From positions 1-43,056 of IMG/VR virus record IMGVR_UViG_3300050821_003058: a DNA stretch of 43,056 nucleotides. One strand, given 5' to 3'. Each line of letters opens with the position of its first letter. The stretch's first letter is position 1. Origin of the DNA: a virus. The notes under the pieces were generated by a model. That model did no database searches, was not told the DNA's origin, and saw nothing but the letters and a program-made list of their open reading frames with translations. The position numbers and the translations under genes were made by a program. Below are positions 16,634 through 43,056 of this stretch, in pieces.

Positions 16634-17879
16634 TTATGCCGCCACCGGCTGGGGCACGCGCTCGGCGGCGAGGTCGGCGAAGGTGCGGCCTGGCTCAGCT
16701 GCGAGCGTCGCTGTGCCGCCAGCGAACGCCTGCCAGCGCAGCACGGCAACGTCGACGTATGCGGGCGATATCTCGATGGCGTGGCAGGCGCGTCCGGTCA
16801 TCTCGGCGGCGATGATGGTGGGTGCCGGAGCCGACGAACGGGTCGTACACCGCCTGTCCGGCGCTGGAGTTGTTCTCGATCGGGCGGCGCATGCACTCGA
16901 CGGGCTTCTGGGTGCCATGACCAGTCTCCGATGCACGCTGCTTGTCGATGTCCCACACCGTGGATTGCTTGTGGTCTCCATGCCACTGCGCGGTGCTACC
17001 TTTGCGCACGGCGTACCAGCAGGGCTCGTGCTGGAAATGATAGTGCCCGCGAGAGATGACGATATGGCCCTTATTCCAGATGATCTGCGCGCGCATTTCA
17101 AACGCGGCGGCTTCGAGGCTTTCGACGACCTCTCTGGCATGCAGACCTGCATGCCAGACGTATGCGATTGATCCAGAAAACAATGCCCACGCTTCGCGCC
17201 AATCCGCCCGATTGTCGTTGGTAACTGCTCCGCGACGCGCAGACGACAAGCCGCGATCAACGCGCCACTCGGGATCGTAGTTTGTGCCATACGGCGGATC
17301 GGTGACCATCAGGTGCGGCTTCACGCCGGCCAGCGCGAGCGACACGTCGACCTCGCTCGTCGCATCGCCGCACACCAGCCGATGCCGCCCGAGCAGCCAC
17401 ACATCGCCGGCGCGCGATACCGGCTCGGCCGGCGTCTCCGGCACATCGTCGGGATCGGTGAGGCCTGAGGTGGGCTCCGCGAGCCATGCGGCCATCTCGT
17501 CGTCGGAGAAGCCCACGAGCGAAAGATCGAAGCCGGCGGCACCGAGTTCTCCCAGCTCCAGCCTCAGAGTTTCCGCGTCCCATCCCGCGTTGAGGGCGAG
17601 CTGGTTGTCGGCGATGGCGAGCGCGCGCTTCTGATCGGCGCTGAGGCCGGCGAGCGTGATGGTGGGAACTTCGGCCATGCCGTGCTGCTTGGCGGCCTCG
17701 AGGCGGCCGTGGCCGGCGATGATGGCGTTGTGCTCGTCGACCAGGATCGGGTTGGTCCAGCCGAACGCCTCGATGGAGCGGCCGATCTGTTGCACCTGCG
17801 CGGCGCTGTGGGTGCGCGCGTTGCGTGCTGCGGGCCGCACCGAGGCGATGGAGCGATAAGTGATGGCGAGCTGGTTCAT
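16634..17879 (-). CDS. ParB-domain DNA methyltransferase, interrupted by a frameshift in motif I
   Basis: The N-terminus (1-90) is a ParB-like domain with NPILVDEHNAIIAGHGRLEAA. The methyltransferase catalytic motif IV DPPYG lies at 194-198, and TGHGTQKPVE is at about 319-328. At the SAM-binding motif I the frame reads DPFVGSGT, and one extra base (G run at 16820-16822, ACCC on the coding strand) then shifts it to a nonsense tail ending at 16695. Dropping that base restores TTIIAAEMTGRACHAIEISPAYVDVAVLRW and a natural end at 16634, giving 414 residues. Such N6A/N4C enzymes usually protect phage DNA from restriction. The shift may be an assembly error, a true mutation or recoding. Confidence 0.85.
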
Positions 17880-17900: not shown

Positions 17901-18140
17901 TCACCCCATGAAACGCCCGTCACCACCTATGAGTGCGCGTGCTGGGAACGGCGCACTTTGCGGCGCGGCTGGAGCGTGAGTGGGCGCACTTTTCAGCTGC
18001 TCGCGGAGGCTGCGTTCCTCGGCGAGGGCGCGGTGCGCGGTTTCCATCCATGCGTCGCGGGCGAGGGCGAGGTTGCGGACCTGCTGGCGGAGGACGGCGA
18101 TCTGCTGGTCGCGGATCAGGAGGCGGTCGGCGTCGGTCAT
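17901..18140 (-). CDS. Small coiled-coil protein, unknown
   Basis: The protein has 79 residues. The ATG at 18140 overlaps the stop of the NusG-like gene (ATGA). Residues 1-50 form a likely coiled coil (RDQQIAVLRQQVRNLALARDAWMETAHRALAEE); the C-terminus is Pro/Ala-rich. It resembles small phage proteins often found beside regulators, without a known role. The translational overlap suggests it is made with the NusG-like protein. Confidence 0.6.
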   Translation of the reverse strand: MTDADRLLIRDQQIAVLRQQVRNLALARDAWMETAHRALAEERSLREQLKSAPTHAPAAPQSAPFPARALIGGDGRFMG

Positions 18141-18700
18141 GTGCACTCCAGTGCCCTGTTCGTTACGCTTTCGCCAAACAGCCGCTGGAGCAGGCGCAGG
18201 CGGCTTCCTGCGTCCAGCCCGGCCAGACCATGCCAGACGGGCCGCCACCCGGCTCCTGGGGCAACGTAGGGCGCTTCTCCGGGGTCATCGACGATGCCTC
18301 GGGCGGAGGTGCGGGCGAGGAGTTCGGTGATGGCGTAGTCCGGGAGGGGTGTTGGCGTGGCGGGCGCGTGGCAGATGAGGCCGCCGACGCCGCGGGCTGC
18401 CTTGATGCGTCCCCAGTCGTCGCGGCTGGCATCGAAGCGGCAGAGCACGTAGCGCGACCAGAGCGGGACGACGAGCGTGTGGCGGCAGAGTGTGCGCTCG
18501 AGGAACAGGGGCAGGAAGCTCTCGAAGCCGGCGGCGCGGATGGCTTCGTCGGCGATGCGTTCGCGCTGGACCTCGGTCCAGGCGCAGTGCCAGCGAATGC
18601 CGCGGCACGAGACTCCGCGCTGAGCGAGGCTGCGCGACGGCTCGTGCTGACCCCGATCTAACCGGGTGTCCGGTTTTGGGTCAAGCGTTGCGTGGCTCAT
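18137..18700 (-). CDS. NusG/RfaH-like transcription elongation factor paralogue
   Basis: The protein has 187 residues. The start at 18700 is fixed by ATGA overlap with the upstream gene and a GGAAGG site. Residues 35-130 match the NGN domain in order: RWHCAWTEVQRERIADEAIRAAG, then GFESFLPLFLERT, then VPLWSRYVLCRFD, then WGRIKAARGVGGLI and PLPDYAITELL. The tail (about 150-187: VWHGLAGLDAGSRLRLLQRLFGES) looks like a degenerate KOW domain. Such proteins bind the RNA polymerase clamp and prevent pausing or termination. In a phage this would act as an antiterminator for long operons. The host NusG would be its competitor. Confidence 0.75.
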   Translation of the reverse strand: MSHATLDPKPDTRLDRGQHEPSRSLAQRGVSCRGIRWHCAWTEVQRERIADEAIRAAGFESFLPLFLERTLCRHTLVVPLWSRYVLCRFDASRDDWGRIKAARGVGGLICHAPATPTPLPDYAITELLARTSARGIVDDPGEAPYVAPGAGWRPVWHGLAGLDAGSRLRLLQRLFGESVTNRALECT

Positions 18701-19151: not shown

Positions 19152-19299
19152 GCGCCATTTGCGCCATAACGCTGCGCCATAAACCGCCTCAGGATGGGGG
19201 ATGCTGCGCCATAAACTCGCCGCTTTAGCGGCGTTATGGCGCAAAGCCATCCCCGGCGGACCTTTCCCGCGCCATAACCGCGCCATAACCGCGCCATAA
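19152..19299. repeat. Iteron-like array of GCGCCATAA
   Basis: Six exact direct copies of GCGCCATAA start at 19161, 19174, 19206, 19269, 19280 and 19291. One inverted copy lies at 19234-19242, and a degenerate copy (GCGCCATTT) starts at 19152. The last three are spaced exactly 11 bases apart, one helical turn. The array occupies the non-coding gap right after the RepA-like helicase gene. This arrangement is typical of plasmid or phage replication origins with initiator-binding iterons, or of an autoregulatory operator. Confidence 0.85.
19197..19254. other. Long hairpin inside the iteron array, candidate origin element
   Basis: The arms are GGGGATG, GCGCCATAA and CGCCGCT on the left, and AGCGGCG, TTATGGCGC and CATCCCC on the right, with a 2-base loop and bulges of 2-5 bases. 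Two iterons form the middle of the arms. Such structures are seen as single-strand initiation sites near RepA-type helicases (RSF1010 family). A terminator role is also possible, but neither side has a T-run. Confidence 0.6.
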
Positions 19300-19304
19300 C
19301 AGAA

Positions 19305-20549
19305 TCACCCATATCGGCCCCCCGGACGCTTGGCGTTGTTGACGCGGAGGCCGATGACATCCTTGCGGTTGGCATCCTTGTAGGTCTCCTGGGCGAGCAG
19401 GCCGGAGCCGAGCCAGGTCTTGATGACGTTGGCGGCCTGGGCTTCGGTGAGGCGGAACATCTCGACCAGCACGGCGCCGGCCCATCGCTCGCCGCCGCCG
19501 CGTCGGCTGTGGGTGTAGCGACCGCCACCTGGGATGCCGGCATCGATCCGGTCGAGGGCGAGGTTGCAATCCGGGGCGGGCATGCTGTCCCAGACCGACG
19601 GCGGTTCCCACGCCTCGATGACGACCACCTGATCGCCGTGCGGATAGATCGCATCGGCGTTGTCGAGCGTGACGTGGCCGAGATGGAACCAACTGGCTTT
19701 GGGTGCGCGCGGCGCGAGATTGGCCTTGGCATCGTCGAGCCTCGCGTATTGCAGTCGGTCGTCGGGGGGCACGCCGAGGGCATTGGCGTCCTCCTCCGTC
19801 ATGGTGGAGAGCAGCAGACCGACCCTGGCGCTGTCGGTGAGGGCTTTGGCGCCGCGTGCGGCCTCGATGCTGTCCACCATGCCCTTGCGGACGTGATGGG
19901 CGAGCAGGACCGCGCAATCGCCATACCGCGCCACGCGGCGCCAGGCTGCGGCGGCCTGTATCATCTGAGGGTTAGAGTTCTCTTCTAACGTGTGGCTTTC
20001 AGCGAAGGGATCGACGGCGAGAACGCCGATCTTCTCGTCTTTCACCCGCTCGATGATGGCTTTTTCGTCGGGATGCACGACCGAAAAACCGTCGTCACCA
20101 TTGGCTGCGATCCGCACCGCGCGATCGGACGGCGAGACGAAGAACCGGCCGGCGATGTCGGCGTTGGTGATGCCGTAGCGCATGGCGAGTGCGGTGACGC
20201 GGCGGTCGACCTCTTCCTGGGGATCTTCGAGGTTGAGCAGCGCGGTGTTGCATTGGAGATGGATGCGGGTTTTCAGGAACGAGCGGTTGATGGCAAGTTC
20301 CATGCACATCGCCAGGATAAGGCTGGATTTTCCTGTGCCGCCCGGAGCGATCAGCAGGGTGACGAAGCCGCGGATGAGCTGGGTGCCGTAGAGCCATTGG
20401 CGGTGCGGGATCTGTGACGGATCGAGGATGCGCAGCGGCTGCAGGCCGAACGGCTCGGGAGGCGTCGCTTCCGCTTCTTCCTCGCGGTCGTAGACCACGC
20501 GCGGCCGGTAGCCGCCCGCCTCATAGCTTCGCCTTGTGTGGTCAACCAT
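19305..20549 (-). CDS. RepA-like hexameric replicative helicase (AAA_25 / RecA-fold ATPase)
   Basis: The protein has 414 residues. The start at 20549 has a GGGGAGG site and overlaps the upstream stop by 8 bases. Walker A is APGGTGKSS (68-76) and Walker B is IGVLAVDPF (174-182). LLAHHVRKG (about 214-222) supplies the sensor histidine region seen in plasmid RepA/DnaB-like helicases. ALLNLEDPQEEVDRR (about 103-117) is the family's LEDP block. The C-terminal 120 residues form a winged-helix-like domain. With the iteron array directly downstream, it is the best candidate for the phage's own replication helicase. Confidence 0.85.
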   Translation of the reverse strand: MVDHTRRSYEAGGYRPRVVYDREEEAEATPPEPFGLQPLRILDPSQIPHRQWLYGTQLIRGFVTLLIAPGGTGKSSLILAMCMELAINRSFLKTRIHLQCNTALLNLEDPQEEVDRRVTALAMRYGITNADIAGRFFVSPSDRAVRIAANGDDGFSVVHPDEKAIIERVKDEKIGVLAVDPFAESHTLEENSNPQMIQAAAAWRRVARYGDCAVLLAHHVRKGMVDSIEAARGAKALTDSARVGLLLSTMTEEDANALGVPPDDRLQYARLDDAKANLAPRAPKASWFHLGHVTLDNADAIYPHGDQVVVIEAWEPPSVWDSMPAPDCNLALDRIDAGIPGGGRYTHSRRGGGERWAGAVLVEMFRLTEAQAANVIKTWLGSGLLAQETYKDANRKDVIGLRVNNAKRPGGRYG

Positions 20550-21030
20550 GGGGGCGACCTCCCCGTGGTGCTGGTGGTAACGCGAACCACACCTCAGTCC
20601 TGACGATTTCCGAGACCTTGGCTTCGGCAAGCGGGAAGCCGGCACTGCCGTTGAGGCCGTGAGCTTCTGCCATCAGGGAACCCCATGGCTTGCGTTCAGC
20701 GATCATTGGCCGGAGCAGGTGCTTGATGCGCGCGGTCGCGATCTCGCGCCGGTTGCGGTCATCGTCCAGCATCGACGCGGCAAGTTTTTTGCAACTGGCG
20801 TCTGTTATGCCGCTTTTCTCGCACAGCGCGGCAATGTGCCAGGCGAGTTCCCGCGCGGCCTCGGGCTCGGAGAAGATGCCGGCGGCGACCAGGGCGTCGA
20901 GGCGGTGCGCCTCGTCCGCAGCCCAGTTCCGCAGCGTGGCCGTATAGGCCCGCTCGGCGGTGACCAGCACGATGGGTCCGAGGGACCGGACGGTCATGCG
21001 CGGGACTGACATGCGTAGGGGTACGGCCAT
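20542..21030 (-). CDS. Unknown protein upstream of the helicase
   Basis: The protein has 162 residues. The start at 21030 has GGTGGAG 8-14 bases before the ATG; the frame further upstream (to 21123) crosses the hairpin region. The protein is largely helical (AYTATLRNWAADEAHRLDALVAAG, SEPEAARELAWHIAALCEKSG, ATARIKHLLRPMIAERKPWGSL). No motif is known to me. Tight linkage to the helicase (8-base overlap) suggests a helicase loader or replication accessory role, as inference only. Confidence 0.6.
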   Translation of the reverse strand: MAVPLRMSVPRMTVRSLGPIVLVTAERAYTATLRNWAADEAHRLDALVAAGIFSEPEAARELAWHIAALCEKSGITDASCKKLAASMLDDDRNRREIATARIKHLLRPMIAERKPWGSLMAEAHGLNGSAGFPLAEAKVSEIVRTEVWFALPPAPRGGRPHG

Positions 21031-21777: not shown

Positions 21778-22343
21778 TCGCGGATATCCAAAATGTCCGC
21801 GACGGTCATCTCAGGGTGGTCGTACCAATCCGGGTGATCGTCCACGATGTCCTGCAGCAGCTTGGCAACCGCCGTCGCCTCGTGGGCTTTCTTCCGCTTC
21901 AGCGCGATCACATCGAGCACCTCATACAGCGTCATGCGGACCAGCATCTTGCGCTCGGCGGTCTCGCCTTCATCCCAGGCCGCGTAGACCTTCAGCCACC
22001 GGAAATCGAAGTCGTCATCGACGATGTCGGCAAAGTCGCCCTGAGTGTTGCCACCCGCACCCGTGACCCACGCCGCCGCGCGCTTCCGCTTCTGATCATC
22101 CTCCGTGGTGTCCGATTTGTAGTTCTTGAACGTGGTCCCGGCGCCGACCCGCATCAGCGACCGCACATGCGGCTTCGGCTGACCAGCCTCTTGGCACGCC
22201 GGGCAGCGGCAGCGGCATTCGCAGACACCCGCCGCCACATAGCGATGGACCAGGAGCGATGCTGCCTCGGCGGTTTGGTAGCCGCCGCCGTCGGGGTCTA
22301 ATTCGTTGACGATGTCACGCACGTCGTCTTTCAGCTTGCTCAC
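21774..22343 (-). CDS. Cys-rich protein, possible metal-binding replication accessory
   Basis: The protein has 189 residues from a GTG start at 22343, with GGGAG 8-12 bases upstream; the start lies inside the 3' end of the ParB-like gene (29-base overlap). Residues 37-48 contain CECRCRCPAC, four cysteines that could bind zinc. The centre has WLKVYAAWDEGETAERKMLVRMTLYEVLDVIALKRKKAHE, a long helical segment. The function is unknown; the location suggests a role in DNA metabolism. Confidence 0.6.
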   Translation of the reverse strand: MSKLKDDVRDIVNELDPDGGGYQTAEAASLLVHRYVAAGVCECRCRCPACQEAGQPKPHVRSLMRVGAGTTFKNYKSDTTEDDQKRKRAAAWVTGAGGNTQGDFADIVDDDFDFRWLKVYAAWDEGETAERKMLVRMTLYEVLDVIALKRKKAHEATAVAKLLQDIVDDHPDWYDHPEMTVADILDIRE

Positions 22344-23142
22344 TGACGAATCTCCCGTGCAATTCGTTGATCCATTCGTGGGCTGCCTCGAGCTGGGGCC
22401 CGAACACATGGTCGAAGCCGGTGAAGCGACCTTCGAACAGCGCATCCACCGACACCTGTTCGTTGACCAGGCGCAGCGCGGCTAAAGCTGCTGACCAGTT
22501 CTGAGCTGGCGGTGCGGCTAACTCGCGCAGCTTCGCTTTCGCTGCGTCGGAGAGGAATGGCGATGGGGCTTGTCCAGTCTCAGCACTGTGCTGTTTCTGG
22601 ACAACATCCGTCACAGTCTGCGGTGATTTAAGCCCAAGCACCTCTGCGACCTGCCGATGCGTCTTGCCCTCGTCCTTCAGTCGGATAATCTCAGCGTCGC
22701 GCGTAGCCCTGGCGGCGTTACGCGCCTTCGCTGTCAGCTTCTCTGCCCAACTACCGGAGCACCGAAGCAATGCCGCCACCGCCTCGACATCACACGGATC
22801 GACCAACTCATTGCGGCACGCAGTTTCATACGCCCTGCTGTAATCCCCAGACGCGCGCTGCAAGCCATGTGAGGCATTCGCCGACAAAGACCATAACAAC
22901 GCATCGCGCCGCGACCCGACCCGAACGTCGGTAGCGATAAACTCGTTCTCCAGAACCTTGTTCGCGTGCCAACGATGAAATCCATCAGCCAGCCATAACG
23001 TCTGGTCGTCGCGAAAAACCACGACCGGCGGAAACGTTGTACCATCGACCAGGAGCTGTACGTAGTTTTCCAGCACCGAGCGGTCGATTTCCGCACGCGG
23101 CTGTAATTCCGCGTCTAACGTGATTGCGTCTAGCGGTGTCAT
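22315..23142 (-). CDS. ParB-like nuclease-domain protein
   Basis: The protein has 275 residues. The ATG at 23142 has AGGAGGG 10-16 bases upstream and overlaps the VRR-NUC stop (ATGA). Residues 1-80 hold the ParB/Srx fold with FPPVVVFRDDQTLWLADGFHRWHAN (about 37-61); ADGFHR matches the GxHR-type active motif. Residues 140-175 form a helix-turn-helix (RLKDEGKTHRQVAEVLGLKSPQTVTDVV). A helical tail follows. No ParA partner is seen, so partition is not supported; a DNA-binding regulator or nuclease is more likely. It is separate from the ParB domain of the 16634-17879 methyltransferase. Confidence 0.75.
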   Translation of the reverse strand: MTPLDAITLDAELQPRAEIDRSVLENYVQLLVDGTTFPPVVVFRDDQTLWLADGFHRWHANKVLENEFIATDVRVGSRRDALLWSLSANASHGLQRASGDYSRAYETACRNELVDPCDVEAVAALLRCSGSWAEKLTAKARNAARATRDAEIIRLKDEGKTHRQVAEVLGLKSPQTVTDVVQKQHSAETGQAPSPFLSDAAKAKLRELAAPPAQNWSAALAALRLVNEQVSVDALFEGRFTGFDHVFGPQLEAAHEWINELHGRFVSEQAERRRA

Positions 23143-23573
23143 AAATGCACCCTCCTGGCCCGCGGCACGCCCCACGCATCGAGCAATTTCAGCACGTCCA
23201 GCTCATCGCGTGCGACGCCGAACGCGCACTGTGCGCGCTGCAACGAGACCGACATCTCGCGCTGCGGCACCGACAGCACGCCGGTATCGGATTTAAGTTC
23301 GATCCAGAATGCGCGGCCGCGATGCAGGACACAGAGATCCGGCACGCCAGCGCAGATTCCGCGCGCGATGCGCGTGCCCGGGATGCCGGCGAAGTTCGCC
23401 TGATCGATGCTGAACCAGCACACGCCATCGGCCGACACGTGCCCCTCGCGGCACAGCTCGAGGCGTAGCACGGCGGCGATGCGGCGCTGCATCGCGTGCT
23501 CGGACGGCGCCTGCGTGGTCAGCTTCAGCGGCACCGCCCGGCGGGACCGTCGCACGGGTGCGCTCGCGCTCAC
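23139..23573 (-). CDS. VRR-NUC domain nuclease
   Basis: The protein has 144 residues from a GTG at 23573 that overlaps the stop of the upstream gene (GTGA). The PD-(D/E)XK core of VRR-NUC proteins is visible: GVPDLCVLHRGRAFWIELK (about 81-99), with D84, E97 and K99 as metal ligands, and then QREMSVSLQRAQCAFGVARD. Stand-alone VRR-NUC proteins in phages act as Holliday-junction or structure-specific nucleases. The first seven codons are identical in DNA to those of the next upstream gene. Confidence 0.85.
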   Translation of the reverse strand: MSASAPVRRSRRAVPLKLTTQAPSEHAMQRRIAAVLRLELCREGHVSADGVCWFSIDQANFAGIPGTRIARGICAGVPDLCVLHRGRAFWIELKSDTGVLSVPQREMSVSLQRAQCAFGVARDELDVLKLLDAWGVPRARRVHL

Positions 23574-31303: not shown

Positions 31304-33031
31304 TCACCCAACCCAGGGCTTGATCCGCTGGGTGCCCAACGTCGTCAGCCGCGATCCGTCGGGCACGGCGAACGCGCTATCCACCAGGTCGTGGTAGCCG
31401 TTCCCCATCGCCCAGAACACCGCACCGCACCTGTTCGCCTGTTCCGCGCTGATCACCGCGTCGATCACCGTGTTGCCCTGCGGCGCGAGGCTGTAGCCGT
31501 CGCCGGCGTCGTTGCCGAATTCATCGACGCAGGACCACAAGCCGAGCTGGTTCTTGTTGTTGTCGATCCAACTCGTGACCTTGCCCGCGGCGTAGTTCGG
31601 ATCGGTCCCGTAGTAGTAAATGTGCGGCGTGCAGAATAGCTGGTGCGTGCCGCAGGCCTGCACGACGGTCGCCAGATTGCCGCCATCGTAGCCGCCGACC
31701 GGCTGGATGCCGATCGGGCCGGGGAAGCCGGCATTGCGGATCGCGTTGATGATCGCGATCTGGTTCTGCGCTGTCGTCGCAGCGTTGGCGGACGGCTCGT
31801 TCGGCGTCTCGAGGAACACGTAGGGGTTGGTCTTGTAGATGGTGGCCATATGCGCATACCAATCGGTCCGGCTTTGGTTGCCGCTGTGATCCTCGATCAT
31901 GACGACGACGCCTTTGGCGCCATACATCTTGACGATCTTGTCGATGTCGGCGTCCGTATCCCAATAGCCGTTGGCGTAATTCCCGCAATTCAATCTGAGG
32001 GCGGTGGATCGGCCGAACTGCGACAGCAGCGTGAGCCCGCACGCGGAGCAGTCCTGCGGCGAGCCGTTGAGGCCGCGCATGTGCCAGGGCTTGCCGTTCG
32101 GATCGAGGAAGCCGCCGCTCGCCGTCACCGTGTAGTAGCCCCCGGTCACCGGCGGCGCGGGCGTCGGCGGATAGACCAGATTGGGCGGCGCGTTGGGTTG
32201 CCGGATCCACGACGAGCCCGAGCCGGAATAGGTGTACCACGTGCCGCTGGCGTGGTCCTGGCCCCAGATTTGGCTGTCGACGTAGGCGGTCTGCGCGGAG
32301 CCGTCGCCGCCTGGCACATCGACGCCGTTGCTCTGGATGTGCCCGGCCGATGTGATCGTCAGCGTCTTGCCGTCGTGCATCAGAATCGACCCGCCCGAGG
32401 TCGTGGTGAGCGCGTTGACATCGCTGCTCGGCGCGGGCACGGCGACGACGAAGGCGTTGCTCTTTCCGATCACGGTCGGATTGGCGGCGTCGCGCACGCT
32501 GATCTGCATCGCCGACGACGCCGTAGCGATCGCCGGGTGCGGGAAGGTGAACGTCGTCGCCGTGACGCCGCTCGCCGGCACCGCGGTCCAGGCGCCGGTG
32601 GCGCCGTCCTGATACTCGAGCGTCGGCACCGCGCTGACGTAGCCGCTGATTGTGCCGGAGACCGCGAAGGCGACGCCCACGGTCTGCTGGCCGATGCTGG
32701 TGACGGTGATGGTGTGAGCGACCGGGGGCGGTGCAGCGGCTTCCATCGCCGCCACGGTCGTCGCGAGCGTGTTGAGCTGCGCGGCGTTGGCAGCGGCCTG
32801 CGAGGTGAGCAAGTTTGCCAAGGTCCGCATGGCATCGGCGGTCGGCGTCGGCGCCGCCGCGGCATACTCCGCATCGAGCTCGGCCTCGAGCTCGGCGCGG
32901 ATTTCCGCCTCGAGCCGCGCGCGTTCGTGCCGCCATGGCGTGGTCCAGTTGGTCAGCAGCAGCGGCGGCGGCTCGGACTCGGACGATGGCTCCTGATAGG
33001 CGTCGCCGTCGAGGTTTTGATCGTCGGACAT
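31304..33031 (-). CDS. GH5-like glycoside hydrolase with coiled-coil and Ig-like front
   Basis: The protein has 575 residues. Residues 32-58 form a charged helix (RHERARLEAEIRAELEAELDAEYAA), 104-200 an Ig-like beta domain, and 245-285 a short segment like fibre glycan-binding repeats (QIWGQDHASGTWYTY). The catalytic barrel runs about 298-575. NEP at 411-413 gives the acid/base E412 and CVDEFGN (E504) the nucleophile, both as in family GH5 (cellulases, mannanases). TASGGFLDPNGKPWHMRGLNG opens the barrel in the usual way. No signal peptide, so it is probably a virion-borne depolymerase or a lysis-time exopolysaccharide degrader. Confidence 0.8.
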   Translation of the reverse strand: MSDDQNLDGDAYQEPSSESEPPPLLLTNWTTPWRHERARLEAEIRAELEAELDAEYAAAAPTPTADAMRTLANLLTSQAAANAAQLNTLATTVAAMEAAAPPPVAHTITVTSIGQQTVGVAFAVSGTISGYVSAVPTLEYQDGATGAWTAVPASGVTATTFTFPHPAIATASSAMQISVRDAANPTVIGKSNAFVVAVPAPSSDVNALTTTSGGSILMHDGKTLTITSAGHIQSNGVDVPGGDGSAQTAYVDSQIWGQDHASGTWYTYSGSGSSWIRQPNAPPNLVYPPTPAPPVTGGYYTVTASGGFLDPNGKPWHMRGLNGSPQDCSACGLTLLSQFGRSTALRLNCGNYANGYWDTDADIDKIVKMYGAKGVVVMIEDHSGNQSRTDWYAHMATIYKTNPYVFLETPNEPSANAATTAQNQIAIINAIRNAGFPGPIGIQPVGGYDGGNLATVVQACGTHQLFCTPHIYYYGTDPNYAAGKVTSWIDNNKNQLGLWSCVDEFGNDAGDGYSLAPQGNTVIDAVISAEQANRCGAVFWAMGNGYHDLVDSAFAVPDGSRLTTLGTQRIKPWVG

Positions 33032-42178: not shown

Positions 42179-43056
42179 TATGCCGCCTCCTCCAAACTCA
42201 ATCGGTAGAGCACGCCGAACTCGTCCGCGCCGAGCCGGCGATAGAACGTCCCGAGCCGGGGGCCGGCACCCCGGTGGCCGGCGCGCATCAGCACCGCCGC
42301 GCAACCCCGCGCGCGCAGCCGCGCCACCGCCTCGCGCTGCAGCCGCATGCCGAGCCCGCTTATGTCGGGCGACGCAAAGAAAATGGTGTGCTCGGCCTGC
42401 ACAACGTCCGGCGCGTCGAGCGACGGCGCAATGACGCTCACCAGGTAGCCGAACAGCCGTCCGTTCGCCCTCGCGGTCAGGCACTGCAGCGCGCCGATCT
42501 CGTCGAGCCGCCCGAACAGCCACAAATTCTTGCGGGCGTGATCGTCCGGCGACTGATCGGTCTGCGTCAGGTGTTCGCGGAACAGCGGCTCGGCGTCGCG
42601 ATAGAACTCGCCGAACGGCTCGACCTGGAACGTCACGCCGTCGAACTCGCGCGGCGCCTGGCGCATTGCGGCGATGATCCGGTGCTCGACCTGCTTCGCG
42701 AGCTTCACCACCTGCGGCCGGTGCGCCGCCATGTAGCGCACCAGGGCGCCCATGTTCACCTGGATGTTGAGCGGCGCCACCGCCTGCCACCACGCCGCGT
42801 CGTGGGCGTGCGGCAGACAATGCTCGAAGATCCTCGCACAGCCGGCCTCGGTCGCCAGCTCGTCGTAGCCCACCGACAGCACGCCGGGCACCCGCGCCTC
42901 GATCTGGTCGAGCTTGCGCTCGAGCCGGCGCATCGCCGGGCCCATCACATCGGCATCGAAGCCCATCGCCGCGAGCGAAGCCACCACATCCGCCGACGGC
43001 CGGCGCACCGTCACGATCCGCGCGTCGGGCCGGTATGCCGTGAGCCATCGCCAGAA
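42178..43056 (-). CDS. Sulfotransferase-like / GNAT fusion protein, main part (starts at 281 across the junction)
   Basis: This part runs from the window edge to the stop at 42178 and is continuous with 1-281. Numbering from the true start, residues 75-89 hold the 3'-phosphate-binding-like segment and 118-158 carry VPGVLSVGYDELATEAGCARIFE then WWQAVAPLNIQVNM, both as in short phage sulfotransferase-like proteins. Residues 200-353 look like a GNAT acetyltransferase: a beta-rich front, then SGLGMRLQREAVARLRARG (about 293-311), the acetyl-CoA loop and helix, and a final FYRRLGADEFGVLYRLSL typical for GNAT ends. I have not seen this exact fusion described. Position says late expression. Confidence 0.75.
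   Translation of the reverse strand, partial: FWRWLTAYRPDARIVTVRRPSADVVASLAAMGFDADVMGPAMRRLERKLDQIEARVPGVLSVGYDELATEAGCARIFEHCLPHAHDAAWWQAVAPLNIQVNMGALVRYMAAHRPQVVKLAKQVEHRIIAAMRQAPREFDGVTFQVEPFGEFYRDAEPLFREHLTQTDQSPDDHARKNLWLFGRLDEIGALQCLTARANGRLFGYLVSVIAPSLDAPDVVQAEHTIFFASPDISGLGMRLQREAVARLRARGCAAVLMRAGHRGAGPRLGTFYRRLGADEFGVLYRLSLEEAA
42959..43056. repeat. Terminal direct repeat (right copy), circular overlap
   Basis: Exact copy of bases 1-98. See the left copy for interpretation. Annotators should collapse one copy before counting genes. Confidence 0.95.

Follow-up and report, generated by a model that had tools for sequence, protein, structure and literature searches.

The window analysed here, which is the whole stretch of 43,056 nucleotides of a virus record, encodes a P22-like portal together with head and tail proteins, and 98 identical bases at its ends (positions 1-98 and 42959-43056) fit a genome that is circular or circularly permuted. 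On its minus strand, at 19305..20645, we find the gene of a RepA-like hexameric helicase with a RecA fold (Pfam AAA_25, E=3e-32), whose start codon is uncertain, with a GTG at 20645 and a conserved part beginning at about 20456. An array of short repeats lies just 3' of its stop codon, the first iteron being placed 5 nt past the stop. Read in the sense of the helicase, the array comprises three exact copies of TTATGGCGC at 11-bp steps (iterons 1, 2 and 3, minus strand, at 19291..19299, 19280..19288 and 19269..19277), followed by a hairpin (19197..19254), two more exact copies (iterons 6 and 7, minus strand, at 19174..19182 and 19161..19169) and one partial copy (iteron 8, minus strand, at 19152..19160), which reads GCGCCATTT on the plus strand and has GCGCCAT in common with the others. 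At the position aligned with this partial iteron, relatives carry a matching copy, AATGGCGC. The hairpin itself is made of an outer stem, an inverted iteron pair, a GC-rich inner stem and a short loop, with an exact inverted copy in one arm (iteron 4, plus strand, at 19234..19242) and an exact copy in the other (iteron 5, minus strand, at 19206..19214).

Counted as GCGCCATAA, the exact repeat occurs seven times in the window, always within 19161-19299: six direct copies on the plus strand, starting at 19161, 19174, 19206, 19269, 19280 and 19291, and a single inverted one on the minus strand at 19234-19242. Shuffled versions of the window hold a mean of 0.18 copies, and seven were reached in none of 100 shuffles. 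The last three copies (19269, 19280 and 19291) are spaced by exactly 11 bp, close to the helical spacing at which direct repeats occur in iteron origins. The initial annotation had reported six direct and one inverted copies, three of them at 11-base spacing, and exact counts and shuffles confirm this description. The 58-base hairpin with two iterons in its arms, also part of that description, is equally borne out, as it folds at -24.7 kcal/mol as single-stranded DNA on either strand, with a z of about -7.2 that was equalled by none of 200 shuffles. Its strength alone is nevertheless ordinary, 18% of other stretches of the window matching or beating the strongest 75-nt fold in the 350 bp past the helicase stop, the genome being GC-rich throughout; the weight of the hairpin evidence lies in its conserved form (see below) and not in fold strength. 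No Rfam family matched the array and hairpin region, and a reading of the region as an RNA family was set aside. A check of the tRNA/att context revealed no tRNA. The region, with an AT content of 0.26-0.44 throughout, shows no AT-rich unwinding element; an AT-rich stretch is present in one relative (L011). Cumulative GC skew, which had been put forward as a check on the origin, has its minimum at ~0.5 kb and its maximum at ~21.1 kb of the window and does not mark the array.

The helicase motor matches the PDB profile of RepA (1g8y, E=2e-30), and its modelled fold finds 1nlf, 1olo and 1g8y as top Foldseek matches (TMt 0.79-0.83), so that profile and predicted fold support a motor of the RSF1010 RepA type and the array does adjoin a RepA-like helicase gene, as first described. 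Beyond the motor, AlphaFold2 predicts a C-terminal winged-helix domain (19308..19595, minus strand), which corresponds to residues 288-383 in the numbering used hereafter, based on window positions 19308-20456, and which we propose as the iteron reader from its co-variation with iteron bases. The predicted domain contains helices at 294-306, 327-334 and 338-351 and wing strands at 354-360 and 366-372. The model of the helicase, for which plasmid-record rows were left out, reached a pLDDT of 94.5, and the winged helix modelled alone a pLDDT of 89.9. No PDB sequence matched the winged helix, and a structural search with this domain alone gave weak winged-helix matches, none under E=0.001; the origin-binding domain of phage P4 was not among the 50 structural matches listed. 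In many helicases of the family the chain is extended at its N-terminus (about half, with 76 fused and 71 stand-alone among 158 helicases); this extension is a Prim-Pol in two of them (L005 and L008), and other relatives have a separate Toprim protein encoded directly upstream. In the window, no primase was matched by tblastn or Pfam.

Used alone as a query against genome contigs, the window helicase found no relatives, whereas an alignment of plasmid, phage and viral relatives retrieved 159, the best 80 of which were kept. An exact DNA search of viral contigs with three iterons in tandem gave no match either, because the iteron sequence drifts. When helicase loci were inspected, one 8-mer was present four or more times at most 350 bp past the helicase stop in 55% of 241 loci, compared with a background of 1.3% of 13,823 windows; the other ~45% have fewer than four exact copies. 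In the 96 non-redundant loci that reach four copies, both orientations are always represented; spacings of 8-12 bp are the commonest, those of 10-12 bp being seen often across the family, and the median distance from stop codon to first iteron in the family is 8.5 bp. Two contigs with a helicase 69% identical to that of the window (75% over the conserved part) show the same layout with the repeat TTATGGCGG/C/A, and helicases 37% identical show it with a different repeat. In close relatives, direct iterons are followed by a hairpin with iteron arms and then by more iterons, the sequence having changed. Two relatives (L097 and L099) have extra sequence between helicase and array, and no repeat array was seen downstream of the related helicase in two others (L008, 6125-6232; L015, 13185-13527).

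The hairpin follows a similar pattern. Close relatives repeat its plan of an outer stem, a pair of iterons and a GC-rich inner stem, each with a sequence of its own; among 40 distinct close loci in which an inverted pair could be identified, 36 have an inner stem of at least 5 bp (mean z -4.5). Across a wider set, 54% of loci have their strongest fold in the hairpin stretch, versus 3.6% expected. What is conserved is thus the form of the hairpin, and not its sequence. A distant example is the Microcystis phage Mae-Yong1326-1 (L009, 6134-6680), a cyanobacterial phage: its motor is 29% identical, its iterons read ACTGGCGCA, and its hairpin is long and almost perfect, with 27-nt arms that are 96% complementary.

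Helicase and array also occur together on complete circular plasmids of Rhodoplanes (53.8 kb), Methylobacterium (31.5 kb) and Microvirga (39.7 and 40.9 kb), the Rhodoplanes record carrying phage genes as well. An annotated Rep initiator is absent from three of the four plasmid records, although two of these three hold uncharacterised proteins that are possible separate initiators, and the fourth (L014) carries repB and repC. Of the plasmid records with this helicase, L011 encodes a terminase, portal, capsid and tape measure, and L012 a tape measure and an integrase, which makes both of them candidate phage-plasmids.

Further evidence came from comparing the iterons with the protein. Alignment of the 96 loci gave an iteron consensus NNTGnnG[C/A/G]A, and every helicase column was scanned for association with each variable iteron base. 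Base 8 was associated with residue 364, in the wing of the winged helix, with a z of 24.5, the next-best column reaching 4.4. In the training loci, Arg364 goes with C at base 8 in 66 of 69 cases, and other residues (Gly, Ser, Tyr or His) in none of 24 (p=3e-19). The rule was fixed before fetching the held-out loci, which came from four more scans that delivered 320 new loci, 65 of them kept for being less than 85% identical to all earlier helicases and among themselves; in these held-out loci, drawn largely from the same collection as the training ones, Arg364 goes with C in 48 of 49 and non-Arg residues in 0 of 16 (p=3e-14). The Microcystis phage obeys the same Arg-C rule. Weaker associations were seen for residue 365 with the two bases before base 8 (Lys mostly with GC/GA, Glu mostly with CG, Met often with TG/GG) and for a Gln/Arg near 321, on the N-terminal side of the conserved Trp325, with the base that precedes TG (a Gln there mostly with G, an Arg mostly with C). 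The latter scores 53/56 for Gln and 12/18 for Arg in the training set and 23/30 and 10/13 in the held-out set, a result that depends on gap placement, and both positions are less strict predictors than 364. In the window, the strongest covarying positions are the wing residues R364 and K365 (R427 and K428 if numbered from the GTG), with codons at 19362..19367 on the minus strand. A relative with a helicase 75% identical (L004) has G instead of R at 364, and its iterons are mostly TTATGGCGG instead of TTATGGCGC, base 8 being mostly G instead of C. The whole code covers clear arrays, those with at least four exact copies.

The possibility that this co-variation is an artefact of the tree is addressed by a motor-only tree, on which residue 364 changes 23 times, and by 15 supported independent pairs, in which the base follows the residue in about 14 and goes the opposite way in none (p about 1e-4). 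With the motor controlled for, the similarity of iterons still goes with that of the winged helix (partial rank correlation 0.27, 0/500 permutations); the correlation with the motor, once the winged helix is accounted for, is lower (0.10, 3/500 permutations). Altogether, the comparison indicates that origin specificity would be largely readable from a few amino acids of the helicase. Pairs of loci with near-identical motors lead in the same direction: motors 97% identical are joined to winged helixes 34% identical (L123/L115), motors 91% identical to winged helixes 24% identical (L463/L127) and motors 80% identical to winged helixes 14% identical (L126/L130), and the iterons differ in every pair. 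These cases suggest that reader domain and array have been exchanged or have diverged together, as expected if both work only as a pair.

Since iteron bases co-vary with winged-helix residues, the helicase is most likely the protein that binds the iterons and would load there; we hold its binding to be very probable, and the suggestion of the initial annotation that the binder would be RepC or one of the small proteins nearby is probably wrong. The idea of a replication origin beside the helicase gains support, as array and hairpin are kept in helicase-bearing relatives, close ones included, contrary to the refuting case named in the initial annotation (repeats lost from close relatives with the helicase), and we consider it highly likely that the region functions as an origin. 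That the array region is the replication origin of the phage with the adjoining helicase as its initiator can be held with good, if slightly lower, confidence. Physical binding, origin activity, self-loading and the role of the hairpin are all read here from sequence comparison. In the mechanism that we propose, every iteron (TTATGGCGC in this phage, NNTGnnG[C/A/G]A across the family) would be bound by the C-terminal winged helix; several helicase monomers, seated on the direct iterons and on the inverted pair, would start ring formation at the origin, and the helicase would be loaded at the array without a separate initiator. Unwinding might then let the hairpin extrude as a loading or priming structure for a primase, a partner that is fused or adjacent in many relatives.

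An origin closer to that of RSF1010, where a separate initiator of RepC type would bind the iterons and the helicase would be merely recruited, is unlikely in our opinion. RSF1010 does join iterons, RepC, RepA and priming hairpins (PMC4234260), the motor of the phage helicase is closest to RSF1010 RepA, and HTH proteins are encoded among the genes near the helicase; however, the residues that co-vary with the iteron bases, also in held-out loci, sit in the winged helix of the helicase, and its immediate neighbours are not conserved, the ORFs immediately downstream of the array having no match in 19 close relatives. This lack of conservation argues as well against a small nearby protein as the binder. 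Pfam and PHROGs recognised no RepC-type initiator among the window proteins scanned, beside which the window has several ORFs of unassigned function.

A regulatory role of the array would be compatible with helicase binding, too. An operator or attenuator, bound by the helicase or another protein and regulating transcription through the region, would agree with the position of the array between two same-strand genes, with a hairpin after a stop codon and with a NusG-family gene a few hundred bases beyond the array, but the unmatched downstream ORFs, the extra sequence that parts helicase from array in L097 and L099, and the lack of both a T-run after the hairpin in the window and an Rfam match make us regard it as improbable. 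A parS-like partition site has very little chance of being the answer, as the two ParB-like matches encoded nearby (16695-17879 and 22315-23175) face an array that follows the helicase in many loci without ParB-like neighbours, covarying residues that sit in the helicase, and, for the first match, a fusion to a methyltransferase.

As a rule, a helicase of the DnaB/RepA class depends on a separate initiator or loader to reach the origin. The alpha protein of phage P4 unites an SF3-type helicase with origin recognition: its single chain has a C-terminal winged helix, contains a primase as well and acts on short iterons at ori1. The helicase described here resembles alpha in being motor and putative origin reader at once, and also in the primase within the chain for a part of the family, but differs in its motor class, and the window offers no counterpart to crr, the second site of P4. 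With RSF1010 it shares the hexameric RepA-class motor, the iterons and the origin hairpins; RepA of RSF1010, though, has no winged helix, and the iterons of RSF1010 are read by the separate RepC. The analogy to RSF1010 first drawn for this locus therefore holds in part.

Other mobile elements offer experimental precedents for the layout, and a like logic, with different motors, has been shown or proposed for them. The archaeal plasmid pRN1 encodes ORF904, a Rep with an SF3 helicase and a C-terminal winged helix, and its origin is a stem-loop of 100 nt directly 3' of the Rep gene, conserved in form but not in sequence (PMC4234260); winged helix, position and conservation in form only are shared with our locus, whereas pRN1 lacks iterons and has a different helicase. 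SaPI Rep and SCCmec Cch2 are self-loading initiator helicases whose C-terminal domain recognises short iterons directly downstream, with Cch2 translocating 3'-5' (PMC7581432). They resemble the phage locus in the iterons directly 3' of the helicase gene, in a primase often fused or adjacent and in the inverted repeats that can lie in the origin, but their motors are of the DUF927 and D5/Primase_Cterm types, unlike the RecA-fold RepA class (AAA_25) found here. The phage helicase would thus most likely follow the logic of SaPI Rep and Cch2 with a different motor, its C-terminal domain reading the iterons. In the same motor class, the AAA_25/RepA-type helicase gp46 of Lactococcus phage F13 has a demonstrated 5'-3' activity and a suggested structure-specific substrate recognition, and the parts of that report available to us describe neither a winged helix nor origin recognition (PMC8965321). 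The open-access literature, of incomplete coverage, gave no account of such a helicase/iteron arrangement for RepA-class helicases.

For the family as a whole, we think it probable, with more reserve than for the single locus, that alphaproteobacterial phages and phage-plasmids, with outliers such as the Microcystis phage, widely use a RepA-class RecA-fold helicase as its own sequence-specific initiator, in which winged helix and array would form an exchangeable specificity cassette on near-constant motors, and specificity would be largely predictable from residues 364/365 and the Gln/Arg near 321. If true, loading by a self-targeting helicase of the RepA class could be tested with one protein and one DNA, and the residue-base pairs would be a readable specificity code, from which phages and phage-plasmids with a common type of origin could be predicted. 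The unassigned phage protein family phrog_25693 would gain a function, and helicase plus array, used as a marker, could help to locate the origins of uncultured phages.

Some neighbouring genes, all on the minus strand, deserve a mention. The NusG-family protein (18137-18697; Pfam NusG, E=1e-8) is encoded between helicase and terminase, and since genes of this family also precede the late genes in two relatives (L011 and L015), it may be a phage elongation or antitermination factor for late genes. The protein at 16695-17879, which adjoins the terminase, fuses a ParB-N-like domain to a DNA N6/N4 methyltransferase domain and is found with 83% identity in another relative (L100), and the one at 22315-23175 combines an N-terminal ParB-like match with a central helix-turn-helix. 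Finally, a protein of 575 aa encoded beside the endolysin (31304-33031) contains a glycoside hydrolase family 5 (cellulase) domain.
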